DNA of 64,000 bases, from the NCBI RefSeq assembly GCF_003762835.1, contig NZ_RJWA01000009.1:124001-188000 (forward strand). Reading direction: 5' to 3'. The translations under genes were made by a program, and so were the position numbers. Below, one piece after another: positions 3,723 to 16,397 of this stretch. This DNA comes from Micromonospora sp. HM5-17 (GTDB lineage Bacteria; Actinomycetota; Actinomycetes; Mycobacteriales; Micromonosporaceae). Every line of letters begins with the position of its first letter. The first letter of the stretch is position 1. The notes under the pieces were generated by a model that worked only from the letters and a program-made list of their open reading frames with translations, searched no databases and was not told the DNA's origin.

Positions 3723-6700
3723 TCAGTCCTCCAGGTCCGCGGCGGGGGAGGGGGCGTTCGGGGTGGCGGCCTTGACCGCTACCGGGGTGGTGTCGAGGTG
3801 CTCGAGCAGGCCCGGCACGTAGGAGACGTCGACCCGGACCTTCTGCACCCGACCGTCGACGTCGCGCATCACGAACTCGCGGAAGCCGAGCCGGTCGGCG
3901 GAGCTGGTGTCGACGGCGGAGAGCGAGGCGAGGGTCGCCTCGTACCCGTCGTTGACCGGCACCCGGAGCAGCCGCAACGCCTCGGAGGCGATCTCCTCGT
4001 CCTCGGCGATCCGGCCGACGAAGACCGTGGAGACCAGGTTCTGCACGTCCAGCCCGAGGATGTCCTTCGGGTTCTGCGAGGAGACCAGCGCGGCGAGGTT
4101 CCACTTACGGGAGTCCCGGGCGAGCCGCACCAGGAACGACCGACCGGAGCGCCACCCTTCCATGAAGTGGGCCTCGTCGAGGCCGACCAGCTTGCGCTGC
4201 GACATCGAACCGCCGTAGCAGCGCCGGACCGCGAGCCGGTGCGCGGTGTGCAGCATCGGCAGCGCGAGCGCCTCCTCGGCCGACCAGTACTCCCGCTCGA
4301 TCTTCAGGTCCGGCAGCCGCAACCCGGCCATGGTGATCACGGTGAGGGTGGCGTCGCCGCCGACCATCTCCTGCGGCGGCCGGCCGAAGAAGAGCAGCGC
4401 CAGCGGCATCTCCGCGGTGTCGAGCAGGAGGTTGGCCAGTTCCCGGCCCTCCTCCTCCTGGCCGTTCAGGCAGGCCACCACGTCGTCCAGAGTGGAGCTC
4501 TCCTCGGCCGGCACCTGTCGGACCGCGTGTCGCAGCAGGGTCGCGGTGGAGGCCTCCCGGGCCACCTGAGGCGGCACCAGCATCATGCAGATGTCCTGGA
4601 CCAGCATCCGGCGCTCGGCCCGGGCGTTCGAGACCGCGATCTGGTACTCCCGGTCGCCGGCGGACCCCTCCGGGAACTCGCTGCGTCGCGGGGTGGGGAT
4701 CAACGCGTACGGCGCCAGCGTCCCCTGCTCGGAGCCGGTCAGGTTCACCACCCGCGAGTACGGCCGCAACTCGGGCATCTGGGCCAGCCGGGCCAGCGGA
4801 CCCGAGGGGTCGAGCAGGGTCACCTGGACCCCGCGCCGGGCCGCCAGGTAGCCGAGCGCGCCGAGCAGCGTCGACTTGCCACCGCCCGGTTCGGCGACGA
4901 AGACGGCGAGGCCGGAGCGTTCCCGAACCTCCATCGGGAAGTGCAGGTCGAGGAAAACCGGCCGGCGGCAGGTGCCGGCGGTCCGACCGATCAGGTCGCC
5001 GCGCCGGTCGCCGACGGTGGAGGCGGCCTGCGGCAGCGCGGCGGCGAGCAGGTTGACCGGCATCCGCCGCAGGTAGCCGGTGTTGGCGACCGGCTCGCCG
5101 GGAATGAACTCCCGGGCCAGCCAGTCCTGGTTCTTCGGGTGTTGCAGCGAGATCCGCAGCTCCCGGGAGTAGAGCTGGATGAGCCGCCGGGCCCGTTCCA
5201 GGCACTCTTCCCGGGTACGACCGCCGACCGCGATCCGGTGCCAGCCGTGCGCCCGGGCGGAGTCGACCGGCAGGCCGGTGGTCATCTCGTCGCCGATGAT
5301 CAGCGCCCGCTTGGCGAGCCGTTCCAGCTCGGGTGGGGCGTCGATGCCGTGCTCGGCGTAGTCGAGCTGCTGGGACCGGATCATCCGGAGCCGGTGCTCC
5401 AGGTTCCGGAACGAGTCCCCGGGGCCGAGGATGTCGACCCGGGTGGAGAGCTCCATCGGCCAGGGCAGCCGCTCGTGGAAGTGCAGCCAGGGCTCGTGGC
5501 GTTCCGGGATCTCCAGGGGCTCCATCCGCCCGACGGTGAGGACGGCGACGTGTCGCTCCTCGCCGGTCATCCGGTTGACCAGCTTGACCGTGGAGCCGTA
5601 CGGGGTGCGGTAGCGCTCGATCTGCTCGGTCAGGGCCAGCAGGTCGCCGCGTTCCCACCGCCCGTTGGTGACCGGCGAGAGGGCGCTGGGCGGCGCCATG
5701 CAGAGCGCGACCGAGCGGTAGAGCAGCCACTCCAGCTCGTCGGGCGTGACCTGCCGCCCCCGCATGCCGAACGCGCCGAGCACCTCGTCGAACTGTCCCA
5801 CGGTGCGGCCCAGCTTGCGGCGTTCTCCGTCGGCCACGCCCCGACCGAAGACCCGGAGAATCCGTTCGACCAGGTTGTTCCCGAGTGACCGGCGGGCGAA
5901 GGTGACCCCGAGGTAGGTCTGCCCCTCGGCGTGGTTGACCGAGAGCAGGTGACGCTGGGCCGCGACCAGGTGGTCCGACCAGCTCGGGGCGCCAGGGACC
6001 GGGGGCAGCGGCGCCGGGGTGTGCGCGTCGATGGTGCGGGCCCACTCGTCGGCCGGGAACGGCCGGGTGGTTCGCCGCAGGTGGAGCCGGAACCCGGCGA
6101 GGCCGGCGTACTGCTCGGAGATGGCCCGCAGCAGCGCCTCGCGCTCGGCGTCCGGCCGGAAGGCCCAGCGCACCTCCGGCAGCCAGTACCAGGCGGTGAC
6201 GGTGTTCGGGGTGAAGGTGAGGTGGCCGGCGATCTCGGTGATCGCGAGTTCGACGGCGGGGTCCCGGTCGCGGAACCGCACCTTCGGGGGGCGGATCGGC
6301 TTCGGTTTCGTGAGTGGGGCGGGCCGCGATCGGGCGGGCTTCGCCTCCCCACCCCGGCCGGCCTTCTTCGCCGTACGCTGCTTCGGCGGCACCACCGGCT
6401 CCGTGCCGCGGTCCGGGGCCCCGCTCCGGGACCGCGCCGACGGCCCGCCGGGGTCGTCGGGCTCCCGGACCGGCGGAAGCGGCCCGGAGCGCTCGGGTTC
6501 GCGCTGGTGCGGCGCGGGTACGGGGGCGGGGCGGGCGGCCTCCGGCACGGGCGGGACGGCCTCCGGTGCGACGCCGGGTGCCGGTCCCGGCTCCGGACCC
6601 CATCCGGCGGGACGGCGGGGGGCCGGCGGCGTGTGCGGGGGCCCGGCCGCTACGGGCACGGCCGGGACCGGCACCGTCGCGGCGGGGGGCGGCGCGACGG

Positions 6701-12672: not shown

Positions 12673-13683
12673 CTAGGGACCGAGGACGCGCTGCCGGCTC
12701 AACAGCCCCACCGGCTCCCCGCCCTCGCCGGTCACCCGCGCGCAGTCGGCGCCGGTGCCGAGCAGCAGGGCCAGGGCGTCGTAGAGCGACGAGCCGAGGG
12801 GCACGGTCGGCAGCTCCTCCGCGGCCCCGTTCGGCGGGAGCGGGGCCAGCAGGTCGGCGGTGACCGGGGTCACGGCCAGCCGGCGGATGGCCCGGTCGGC
12901 ACCGACGAACTCGCGGACGAACGGGGTGGCCGGTTCGCCGAGCAGGACGGCCGGGTCCGCGTACTGCTCCAGCCTGCCGCCCTGGGAGAGGACCACGATG
13001 CGGTCGCCGAGCCGGACCGCCTCGTCCAGGTCGTGCGTGACCAGCACAATCGTCTTGCGTACCTCGGCCTGTAGCCGCAGGAACTCCTCCTGGAGTCGGG
13101 CCCGGGCGATGGGGTCGACGGCCGAGAAGGGCTCGTCCATCAGCAGCACGACGGGATCCGCCGCCAGCGCCCGGGCCACCCCGACCCGCTGTCGTTGCCC
13201 GCCGGAGAGTTCGTGCGGGTAGCGCCGGCCGAAGACCGCCGGATCGAGCCCGACCAGGTCGAGCAGCTCGGCGGAGCGGTTCCGGATCCGGGACCGGGAC
13301 CAGCCGAGCAGCCGGGGCACGGTGCCGACGTTCGCCAGCACGGTCTGGTGGGGGAAGAGGCCGACGTTCTGGATGACGTACCCGATCCGGCGCCGGAGCT
13401 CCACCGGGTCGGCGCGGGTCACGTCCTCGTCGCCGAGGAGGATTCGCCCCGAGGTCGGCTCGATCATCCGGTTGATCATGCGCAGCACGGTGGACTTGCC
13501 GCAGCCCGAGGGACCGATGAGCACCACCAGCTCGCCGGTACCGACCGTCAGGCTCAACTCTCCGACCGCCACCGTCTCGTCCGAGTACCGCTTGTGCACC
13601 CGGTCGAGGGTGATCGCGGCGGTGTCGGGCGTTCCGGGGCTGCCGGCGGCACCGGCGACGCGGGCCTCCGGGGTAACGTCCAC
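12673..13683 (-). CDS. Osmoprotectant (glycine betaine/choline-type) ABC importer ATPase
   Basis: ATP-binding subunit of a ProV/OpuCA-type importer. The 336-residue protein has Walker A GPSGCGKST (57-65), the Q-loop YVIQNVGLFPHQT, signature LSGGQRQRVGVARAL, Walker B VVLLMDEPFSAVDP and switch VTHDLDEAVRLGDR. After the nucleotide-binding domain there is about 75 residues with one CBS-like segment (VTGEGGEPVGLLSRQRVL) rather than a full CBS pair, so the regulatory part is short. The GTG start is supported by GGAAGGA 5 nt upstream. It is transcribed away from its two permease genes, and the start codons are only 2 bp apart, which is unusual for a transporter normally encoded as one operon. Confidence 0.93.
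   Translation of the reverse strand: MDVTPEARVAGAAGSPGTPDTAAITLDRVHKRYSDETVAVGELSLTVGTGELVVLIGPSGCGKSTVLRMINRMIEPTSGRILLGDEDVTRADPVELRRRIGYVIQNVGLFPHQTVLANVGTVPRLLGWSRSRIRNRSAELLDLVGLDPAVFGRRYPHELSGGQRQRVGVARALAADPVVLLMDEPFSAVDPIARARLQEEFLRLQAEVRKTIVLVTHDLDEAVRLGDRIVVLSQGGRLEQYADPAVLLGEPATPFVREFVGADRAIRRLAVTPVTADLLAPLPPNGAAEELPTVPLGSSLYDALALLLGTGADCARVTGEGGEPVGLLSRQRVLGP
13674..13679 (+). promoter_or_regulatory. -10 box of leaderless permease transcript inside the ATPase gene
   Basis: TAACGT ends 6 nt before the permease ATG at 13686 and lies within the first codons of the divergent ATPase gene. The permease therefore probably has a leaderless mRNA and needs no intergenic space. Confidence 0.5.
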
Positions 13684-13685
13684 GT

Positions 13686-14378
13686 ATGTCCTTCCGCATG
13701 ATCGCCCAGGAGCGTCCGGGTAACCCGTGGTTCTCCTGGGACTACGTGCAGGGCAACTCCGACACGATCCTCGCCGCGCTGCGGGAGCACGCCGCGCTGA
13801 CCGCCCAGGCGGTGCTGATCGCCACGGTGGTGGCGATCCCGCTTGCCGTGCTGGCGTACTGGGTCCGGCCGCTCACCGGGCCGATTCTCGCACTCTCCGG
13901 GGCGCTCTACACAATCCCGTCGCTGGCGCTGTTCGCCTTCATCGCGCCGTACCTCGGCACCGGCACCTCGACCGTGCTGGTCGGGCTCGTCGTCTACGCC
14001 CTGCTGCTGATCATCCGGAACACCCTCGCCGGGCTCAACCAGGTTCCGCCCGAGGTGCGGGACGCGGCCCGGGGCATGGGGTACGGCCGCCTCGCCCAGC
14101 TGCTCCGGATCGAGCTGCCGCTCGCGCTGCCCGGCATCCTCACCGGCGTACGGCTCGCCACCGTCTCGACGGTGGCGTTGACGACGGTCGGCGTCCTGGT
14201 GGGGCACGGTGGCCTCGGGCAGCTGATCCTCGGCGGGTTCCGCAACAACTTCTTCCGGGCGGAGATCATGACCGGCACCCTGCTCTGCGTGCTGCTGGCC
14301 CTGGTCCTGGACCTGCTTCTGGCGGGGGCGGAACGGCTCCTCACCCCCTGGTCCCGTCGGCGGGCGGAGGCCGGGTGA
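13686..14378 (+). CDS. Osmoprotectant ABC importer permease 1
   Basis: A 230-residue permease of the ProW/OpuCB family with about six membrane segments. The conserved coupling loop is visible as LAGLNQVPPEVRDAARGMGYGRLAQLLRIELPLALPGILTG (positions 116-156; only part of it is the EAA motif). Later segments include TTVGVLVGHGGLGQLILGG, typical of betaine permeases. It starts 2 bp from the divergent ATPase start; a TAACGT box 6 nt upstream and no ribosome binding site indicate a leaderless mRNA. It overlaps the second permease by 4 bp. Together the genes encode a heterodimeric betaine/choline-type importer for osmotic stress; the substrate is inferred. Confidence 0.92.
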   Translation: MSFRMIAQERPGNPWFSWDYVQGNSDTILAALREHAALTAQAVLIATVVAIPLAVLAYWVRPLTGPILALSGALYTIPSLALFAFIAPYLGTGTSTVLVGLVVYALLLIIRNTLAGLNQVPPEVRDAARGMGYGRLAQLLRIELPLALPGILTGVRLATVSTVALTTVGVLVGHGGLGQLILGGFRNNFFRAEIMTGTLLCVLLALVLDLLLAGAERLLTPWSRRRAEAG

Positions 14379-15109
14379 ACCCGATCGACCAGGCGGTGCG
14401 CTGGCTCAACGACCCGCTGAACTGGACCAATCCCGGGGGGATCCTCGACCGGCTGGTCGAGCACCTGGGGATCTCGGCGGCGGCGGTCGCGCTCGGCTGC
14501 CTCGTCGCCTGGCCGCTCGGGCTCTGGCTCGGCCACATCGGCCGGGGCGGCGGCCTGGTGGTGCTGGTCTCCAACGTCACCCTCGCCATCCCGACCATCG
14601 CGTTGCTGACGATCCTGCCGCTGACCCCGATCGGGTTCGGCAAGCCTCCGGTGATTCTCGCGTTGGCGGTCTTCGCCGTGCCGCCGCTGCTGGCGAACGC
14701 CTACACCGGGATCCGGCAGGTCGACCCGGAGGTACGGGAGGCGGCACGCGGGATGGGCCTGTCCGGCGGGCAGTTGCTGCGTCGGGTGGAGCTTCCGCTG
14801 GCGGTGCCGTACCTGGCCGCCGGGTTCCGGACCGCCGCGGTGCAGGTGGTGGCGACCGCCGCGCTCGCCTCGTTCGTGAACGGGGGCGGACTGGGCCAGA
14901 TCGTGGCGGCCGGGTTCGGCCTCGGCATCTCGGTCGGCGGGGGCCAGATCCTGGCCGGCGGTCTCCTCGTCGCCCTGCTCGCGCTCCTGGTCGAACTGGT
15001 CCTTGCGCTGGTCGAGCGGCTGGTGACGCCCCGACCGCTGCGTCGGGCGGTGCGTCGTACCCGCCGTCGGGCCGATCAGCGGGCCACCGCGGCGATCACC
15101 GGGTCCTGA
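14375..15109 (+). CDS. Osmoprotectant ABC importer permease 2
   Basis: A 244-residue ProW/OpuC-type permease, paralogous to the preceding gene. It starts VNPIDQAVRWLNDPLNW, has five to six membrane segments, and carries the EAA loop IRQVDPEVREAARGMGLSGG (near 115-134) followed by the FVNGGGLGQIVAAGFGLG motif typical of betaine permeases. The GTG start overlaps the stop of permease 1 (GTGA), which fixes it despite the longer open frame. The tail is arginine-rich (RRAVRRTRRRADQRA). The binding lipoprotein gene follows after 271 bp, so it may be expressed from its own promoter. Confidence 0.92.
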   Translation: MNPIDQAVRWLNDPLNWTNPGGILDRLVEHLGISAAAVALGCLVAWPLGLWLGHIGRGGGLVVLVSNVTLAIPTIALLTILPLTPIGFGKPPVILALAVFAVPPLLANAYTGIRQVDPEVREAARGMGLSGGQLLRRVELPLAVPYLAAGFRTAAVQVVATAALASFVNGGGLGQIVAAGFGLGISVGGGQILAGGLLVALLALLVELVLALVERLVTPRPLRRAVRRTRRRADQRATAAITGS

Positions 15110-15380: not shown

Positions 15381-16397
15381 ATGCGGTTACAGACGCGTCT
15401 GGCGATCGGCGCCCTCGGCGCCGTGACGGTGGCCGGGATACTCGGCGGTTGCGGGGAGGCCGGTTCCTCGGGCACCCAGGCCCCGGCGACCGGGGCGCAG
15501 GGTGCTGGCTGCGCGCCGGTGGCCGGCAGCACGCTCCTCGTCCTCGACGACGACAAGAAGCTCCAGAACAGCGACAACATCATCCCGGCGATCAACAGCC
15601 GCGCGGCCCAACCGCCGTTGGTCGCCGCGCTCGACAAGGTCTCGGACAGCCTCGACACCGCGACGCTGATAAAGCTGAACCGGGCTGTTGACGTCGACCG
15701 GAAGTCCTCGAAGGTGGCCGCCGAGGAGTTCGCCGCCGCCCACAACCTGACCGCCGGGATCCCCACCGGCGGTAGCGGTTCGATCGTGATCGGGGCGGCG
15801 AACTTCAGCGAGAGCCAGACCCTCGGCGAGCTGTACCGGATCGCCCTCACCGCGGCCGGTTACCAGGCCCGGGTCCAGCAGATCGGCAACCGCGAGCTGT
15901 ACGAGCCCGCCCTGGAGAAGGGCGAGATCCAGGTGGTTCCGGAGTACGCCGCCACCCTGGCCGACTTTCTCAACAACAAGCTCAACCGGCAGCCGGGCGG
16001 GGCCACCCCGCCACCGGTCTCCTCACCGGACCTCAACCAGACGCTGAACGCGCTGAAGGCGCTCGGCGAGAAGGTTGGACTCACCTTCGGCAAGGCTTCC
16101 GCCGCGCAGAACCAGAACGCCTTCGCGGTCACCCGCGAGTTCGCCGACAGGTACGGCGTCCGGACCCTCAGCCAGCTCGCCGAGAAGTGCTCCGGGACGG
16201 CGACCGTCCTCGCCGGACCGCCCGAGTGCCCGCAGCGGCCGAAGTGCCAGGTGGGGCTGGTACAGGTCTACAACTTCCAGGCGGGTCGGTTCAGCTCCTT
16301 CGACGCCGGCGGTCCGTTGACCAAGTCCGCGTTGACCCGAGGCGAGGCCAGCGTGGGCCTGGTCTTCTCCTCCGACGGGGAACTCGCCACCGGCTGA
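15381..16397 (+). CDS. Osmoprotectant-binding lipoprotein with circularly permuted ProX-like domain
   Basis: Extracytoplasmic binding lipoprotein of the importer, 338 residues. A signal peptide ends in the lipobox LGGC (Cys24). The domain order is unusual. Residues 50-124 (TLLVLDDDKKLQNSDNIIPA... to AAEEFAAAHNL) correspond to the C-terminal end of ordinary ProX/OsmF/OpuAC type 2 proteins, where they follow the DG-x-I-x-x-N-G-L stretch. Residues 134-338 begin with the normal N terminus (IVIGAANFSESQTLGELY) and stop at VFSSDGELATG, exactly where the moved segment would join. Interior landmarks are intact: GEIQVVPEYAATL, PPECPQRPKC and FDAGGPLT. AGGAGG lies 10 nt before the ATG. I see a clean permutation, not a truncation. 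Confidence 0.88.
   Translation: MRLQTRLAIGALGAVTVAGILGGCGEAGSSGTQAPATGAQGAGCAPVAGSTLLVLDDDKKLQNSDNIIPAINSRAAQPPLVAALDKVSDSLDTATLIKLNRAVDVDRKSSKVAAEEFAAAHNLTAGIPTGGSGSIVIGAANFSESQTLGELYRIALTAAGYQARVQQIGNRELYEPALEKGEIQVVPEYAATLADFLNNKLNRQPGGATPPPVSSPDLNQTLNALKALGEKVGLTFGKASAAQNQNAFAVTREFADRYGVRTLSQLAEKCSGTATVLAGPPECPQRPKCQVGLVQVYNFQAGRFSSFDAGGPLTKSALTRGEASVGLVFSSDGELATG

Follow-up and report, generated by a model that had tools for sequence, protein, structure and literature searches.

Among the known solute-binding proteins (SBPs) closest to the one described here are ProX of Archaeoglobus fulgidus (1sw1), OpuBC/OpuCC, EgtUC and OsmF/YehZ, which share its family and predicted fold and differ from it in having the standard order of their parts. 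A circular permutant of this predicted fold that occurs in nature is OpuAC of Bacillus subtilis (2b4l). PMC2395249 reported that structures of betaine-binding proteins, molybdate-binding proteins and CysB, at under 24% identity, are related by permutation. PMC4990184 describes a natural circular permutation, with function kept, in the lipid-anchored ATP-binding cassette (ABC) binding protein Tp0684 (MglB-2) of Treponema, which Brautigam et al. suggest as an adaptation to anchoring; Tp0684 has the type I sugar-binding fold and no family relation to our protein. We analyzed a 64,000-nucleotide stretch of Micromonospora sp. HM5-17 (the window), in which the gene at 15381-16397 encodes a permuted SBP of the OpuAC family. 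Natural permutation of such binding proteins is known as a kind. The preliminary description of the window had said so of domain dislocation in binding proteins in general and had been aware of no described case for this family in Micromonosporaceae; the former part stands, and the latter is limited by the permutation of glycine-betaine-binding proteins already published for distant structures. As far as the literature was searched, four things are new: where the cut lies, a recent event that took place within an orthologous operon, the cysteine pair linked to it, and a second, independent class. A search of the available text of the L. lactis OpuA paper (PMC2861598) for the terms permutation, swap and dislocation found no such text, and no report of a recent in-place permutation with a linked cysteine pair was found in a literature search that was thin in subscription journals.

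Order of the permuted binding protein

The SBP gene begins with ATG, preceded by GGAGG, and ends with TGA immediately after SSDGELATG; its reading frame is open over 338 residues (Table 1). The whole protein scored 126.6 bits against Pfam OpuAC (PF04069, 257 positions; cut-off 21.2), which places it among the OpuAC SBPs, and model positions 188-256 matched upstream of positions 2-183, in reversed order. With archaeal ProX, phmmer likewise placed residues 132-302 on positions 5-165 of the ProX chain and residues 52-119 on positions 201-269, the shorter piece being weak alone (i-Evalue 0.042 and 0.081), and a profile search agreed with this picture of two swapped pieces. We compared residues 32-338 with single and doubled copies of four standard-order relatives. 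All four gave two separate pieces on the single copy and, on the doubled copy, one piece that outscored both of them; on doubled L127 (L, G and f denote our loci, genomes and families), residues 47-336 aligned in one piece over 310 columns at 47% identity, with 244 bits compared to 207 and 57. A one-piece match to the doubled copy and a two-piece match to the single copy define a circular permutation, and the order of this SBP is a true one.

The old C-terminal segment covers approximately residues 50-124 and the old N-terminus lies at about residue 132. The relocated segment shares 33-56% identity with the C-terminal ends of the standard relatives, and the main body is 53% identical to L100/L127 (two names for one locus). 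The standard relatives continue past the position at which our chain ends (VFSSDGGVAAFNLVVLTDDKKLQ in L127). The junction linker was spanned by a single alignment in 62 of 87 loci (some genomes counted twice) and in alignment A1, and all 30 permuted proteins retained at under 92% identity have Cys24 of the lipobox. These results, including the duplicated-concatemer alignment that the preliminary description had proposed, bear out what it put forward: a clean permutation with lipobox and both junctions intact, in which residues 50-124 are the usual C-terminal segment. Its suggestion that residues 50-124 complete the second lobe would need correcting; comparison with solved structures would place them in lobe I, the lobe holding the old N-terminus. 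The G+C content at third codon positions was 0.95 in the tail and 0.93 in the core, giving no sign of a foreign origin. Annotation should allow for the fact that linear models score permuted SBPs as two fragments.

Table 1. Features of the permuted SBP and its operon (positions in the window), and the second permuted class (locus positions)
Feature	Position	Strand	Evidence
Divergent ABC ATPase, ProV/OpuCA type	12673..13683	-	PF00005; synteny
Permease 1	13686..14378	+	PF00528, 66.1 bits; synteny
Permease 2, GTG start overlapping permease 1	14375..15109	+	PF00528, 85.2 bits; synteny
SBP coding sequence	15381-16397	+	
Lipoprotein signal peptide, residues 1-23	15381..15449	+	sequence
Lipobox LGGC, residues 21-24	15441-15452	+	sequence
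Predicted lipidation Cys24 and tether linker, residues 24-49, with GSSGT and GAGCAPVAG	15450..15527	+	conservation, AlphaFold2 pLDDT
Cys44, permutation-linked, beside the new N-terminus	15510..15512	+	Cys conservation in permuted proteins
Relocated segment, residues 50-124, C-terminal in standard proteins; a hinge strand plus three helices, placed in lobe I	15528..15752	+	Pfam model 188-256
Linker at the new junction, residues 125-131, between the former C- and N-termini	15753..15773	+	spanning alignments
Main body, residues 132-338, old N-terminus to new C-terminus SSDGELATG	15774..16394	+	Pfam model 2-183
Cys270, lobe II, permutation-linked, proposed partner of Cys44	16188..16190	+	conservation
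Cys283 (16227-16229) and Cys289 (16245-16247), ancestral pair, Arg286 between	16227..16247	+	conservation
Second permuted class (A2, L118 type), families f2, f30, f37 and f59 of Actinomycetes	L118:1223-2197; also L134-L140, L154-L156	- (L118)	

Distribution, single origin and operon

Sixty-three named loci were found by sequence, 43 in permuted order (one of them frameshifted) and 20 in standard order. The permuted loci belong to Plantactinospora, Micromonospora, Salinispora, Asanoa, Allorhizocola, Rhizocola, Verrucosispora and, frameshifted, Fodinicola. Of 25 genomes in the window's family (counting its own), 20 had a colinear permuted copy, and the permuted order recurred in families f5, f7 and f16; G037 (f14) carried only the first part of the protein, at a contig end. 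Across 296 genomes of the class, searched at E 1e-20 with matches listed down to about 103 bits, colinear permuted matches of at least 394 bits were found in 12 genomes of families f1, f23, f39 and f49 among the matches listed; the remaining matches listed began at query position 89 or later and scored at most 252 bits. The permuted form, which the preliminary description discussed for Micromonosporaceae, is not confined to that family, as shown by families f5, f7, f16, f23, f39 and f49 and by Fodinicola. One relative of the same family (G015) carries two permuted copies (C3:528937-529887 and 2034151-2035131), both 63% identical to that of the window. Some matches on Rhizobium plasmids looked as if they crossed the junction (query 79-332), but both that were read (L128 and L129) have the standard order.

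The standard-order Actinomycete relatives (L127/L100, L067-L082 and L084-L087) resemble the window SBP in operon order and in most ligand-site columns, at approximately 42-53% identity over the main body and 33-56% over the tail; they differ in having the old order, mostly the ancestral cysteine pair only, and a tether that would enter lobe I. L067-L082 and L084-L087 are titled Streptomyces, except L077, which is Streptosporangium. Another standard-order relative, L103, is a 546-residue open frame with no recognizable lipobox and may be membrane-anchored or fused.

From 122 open frames with core and tail matches we retained 114 distinct proteins (72 permuted and 42 standard) and set them in a common order. 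Five frames were excluded, namely L120 (which has the tail alone, at the end of its contig), the two frames of L066, a second L125 frame, and L118, whose core splits. The tree was built from 60 representatives under 85% identity, with L118 added by hand (61 rows). All 35 permuted rows fell on one side of a single branch, with support of 100/98, which was present in 100% of 200 bootstrap trees; the permuted form in the window's clade has a single origin. The nearest standard protein to the window SBP (L127) is 51% identical to it and the furthest permuted protein (L122, on a long branch) 48%, so that the event is young compared with the family as a whole. The G097 protein (L117) fell in a separate Streptomyces-type branch. 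None of the 114 proteins had a duplicated core or tail, which leaves a duplication route with no direct witness.

The order of divergent ATPase, two permeases and SBP was found at 42 of the 43 permuted and 19 of the 20 standard named loci; at the two exceptions (L056 and L086) part of the operon genes was missing from the stretch examined. The ATPase, which scored 296.8 bits against NCBIfam proV (below the cut-off of 326.6), was at the same place in 61 of the 63 loci. The same four-gene arrangement surrounds standard L127 and permuted L121 (f7) and L123 (f16), and such identical neighbors for both forms indicate that the gene was permuted in place, without leaving the operon. The signal peptide, the lipobox and the adjoining ATPase and permeases assign the protein to the lipid-anchored SBPs of type I ABC importers. 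By our reading, the two other PF04069 matches in the window's genome are SsuA- and ModA-like, so the permuted SBP would be the only one of its kind there at that threshold. The ATPase and permease 1 are called as starting within a few bases of each other (13681-13686), so that one of the two probably begins further inside its gene, and the placement of their shared promoter region is provisional.

Linked cysteines, ligand site and a second permuted class

After the lipobox cysteine, each of the 72 permuted proteins has exactly four cysteines, which in the 30 non-redundant permuted proteins are 44, 270, 283 and 289 (window numbering). A cysteine within 12 residues ahead of the relocated segment was present in all 72, and column 270 was Cys in 72 of 72 permuted but 0 of 42 standard proteins (gap in 33, Ser in 7, Thr in 2). 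Cys283 and Cys289 each occurred in all 72 permuted proteins and in 41 of the 42 standard ones, and Arg286 in all 114. Of the standard proteins, 35 of 42 had two cysteines after the lipobox, five had four and one had none; one with no recognizable lipobox was excluded. Among the 113 proteins whose lipobox was found the count was always even, and a count that is never odd fits cysteines that occur in disulfides only. A Cys44-Cys270 disulfide probably fixes the new N-terminus and the tether side to lobe II. Five standard proteins (L105, L106, L108, L109 and L114) have a different extra pair, in the tether linker and in helix 1 of lobe I (KACGY-type), which suggests that the tethered end may have been stapled repeatedly.

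The best AlphaFold2 model of the permuted SBP had a predicted local distance difference test (pLDDT) value of 80. Values were below 50 up to residue 32, with a mean of 57 over residues 31-40 and 91 over residues 41-50, which were modeled with no helix or strand despite that value. Foldseek gave partial matches only, as expected of a sequential aligner, and the structural matches to ProX and OpuAC were partial too.

We take the betaine-binding positions of A. fulgidus ProX to be K13, Y63, T66, Y111, R149, Y190 and Y214, with tyrosines 63, 111, 190 and 214 presumably forming the cage. By alignment these correspond to A140, Y189, T192, N246, R286, F329 or S330, and S64. The equivalents of Y63, T66 and R149 are retained, and the protein lacks the full presumed aromatic cage of the ProX/OpuBC betaine binders: position 63 is Tyr, 111 and 214 are Asn and Ser, and 190 is unsure. 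The score against the NCBIfam OsmF equivalog NF049931 was 58 bits, in two stretches, far below the cut-off of 400. The name osmoprotectant-binding given in the preliminary description stands on family membership and gains no support from the OsmF score or from the cage, of whose four presumed positions at least two are lost. The ligand may not be betaine and would belong to the polar or zwitterionic solutes. Permuted and standard proteins agree at most of the mapped ligand-site columns, and we see no sign of a change in specificity brought about by the permutation itself.

A second class of permuted SBPs of the same broad family, represented by L118 of G040, arose by an independent permutation event. 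Past the lipobox linker the protein begins at SKLIMGGPPEF, and it ends with TTIADLAKPAS; the cut separates the IADL helix from the KLIMGG strand. The class profile matched the solved relative 7s7w with positions 192-318 on 14-147 and positions 44-185 on 147-288, showing a single clean cut. The class was found in 7 of 24 genomes of G040's family and in 3 of 296 genomes sampled from the class of bacteria, and the tree neighbor of L118 (L119, 57% identical) has the standard order. Like the window SBP, these proteins have a lipobox, are permuted and have an N-terminus that would be shifted into lobe II; unlike it, they have another cut and no extra cysteines, the lipobox cysteine being the only one in 10 of 10 proteins. 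The cut corresponds to the end of OpuAC and so appears to repeat the OpuAC order. From the sequences, the lipid-anchored N-terminus would have moved from lobe I to lobe II in both permuted classes. An open frame on a Mycobacterium ulcerans plasmid, annotated as a glycine betaine SBP (L130:3405-4163, forward strand), is a short form of the second permuted order that has no signal peptide and misses the beginning of lobe II.

Proposed explanation, alternatives and meaning

We propose, with a probability of about 0.8, that the protein is a working lipid-anchored SBP of a type I ABC importer that was permuted once in an Actinomycetes ancestor and kept since. The ancestor would have been a standard-order SBP in the same operon, with a ProV/ProW-like ATPase and two permeases. 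The last 75 or so residues would have been lost at the C-terminus and gained between the lipobox linker and the old N-terminus, presumably by duplication or fusion, a route of which we saw no intermediate. The two-lobed fold and most ligand-site residues would have been retained. The cut would fall in lobe II, directly ahead of the strand returning to lobe I, so that the membrane tether would enter at lobe II and the hinge rather than at lobe I. Cys44 and Cys270 would have arisen along with the permutation, their disulfide most likely replacing the broken chain connection and fixing the tether side.

Several observations weigh against this proposal. No match was found in 5 of the 25 genomes of the window's family, and some f23 and f39 genomes showed standard-type matches only (G097, G110 and G063). 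The five AlphaFold2 models ranged in pLDDT from 80 to 65, and the control model of a standard Streptomyces relative reached only 45 and was set aside. The permuted proteins depart from the standard ones at columns 329-331, close to the ligand site, where many of the latter have Thr. The Fodinicola feengrottensis copy (L066, approximately 4743-5997, forward strand) is split over two reading frames, and it is this copy that would favor a degenerate, non-functional by-product of rearrangement. Such a by-product is improbable, since many site residues and all four cysteines are invariant in the clade, the signal and operon are intact, and at the PF04069 threshold no standard copy would substitute for the SBP in the window's genome. 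An assembly or sequencing artefact joining pieces of one or two genes, of which a rearranged order is the classic sign and which the preliminary description had named as grounds for refutation, is scarcely conceivable; the order recurs in 43 named loci of independent assemblies and in genomes assembled as one contig (G001, G007 and G009 among them), and we rejected this reading.

The protein could also be a member of the OpuAC permuted class rather than a separate permutation, as OpuAC is its best sequential structural match and the permutation among betaine-binding proteins is published (PMC2395249). However, outside the clade the proteins nearest to it, at about 51% identity, come from Actinomycetes and have the standard order, OpuAC was absent from its sequence matches at E 0.01 and at E 1, and the last residue of OpuAC pairs with residue 268 rather than 338 (approximate, from aligned ranges only). 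With a different cut, an inherited OpuAC-type permutation is very improbable and was rejected. The permutation could instead be real and the extra cysteines unrelated to it, acquired by chance on the same stem branch or pairing with Cys283 and Cys289. The cysteine link comes from one clade, hence one event and one data point regardless of the number of sequences, and five standard proteins gained a different extra pair. Against this, Cys44 lies at the new N-terminus, residue 270 is near the loop cut by the second permutation, and the cysteine count is always even; we regard unrelated cysteines as a real but unlikely possibility. Returning to the permuted, tethered SBP, a broader interpretation is that at least two independent Actinomycete permutations, with OpuAC as a third, each shifted the anchor from lobe I to lobe II, that Cys44-Cys270 repaired the break, and that re-siting of the tether relative to the permeases recurred rather than being a neutral accident. 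We offer this interpretation tentatively and would not bet on it.

Natural permutations are often known only between very distant proteins, such as the published betaine-binding case, which makes their origin and cost hard to test. Here, permuted and unpermuted forms up to 51% identical occupy the same operon, one event and a linked cysteine pair apart, so that what the cut costs, what a compensating disulfide contributes and how a moved lipid anchor acts are directly testable in ordinary proteins from harmless environmental species. If the broader interpretation is true, permutation would be a repeated way of re-siting the membrane tether relative to the permeases.
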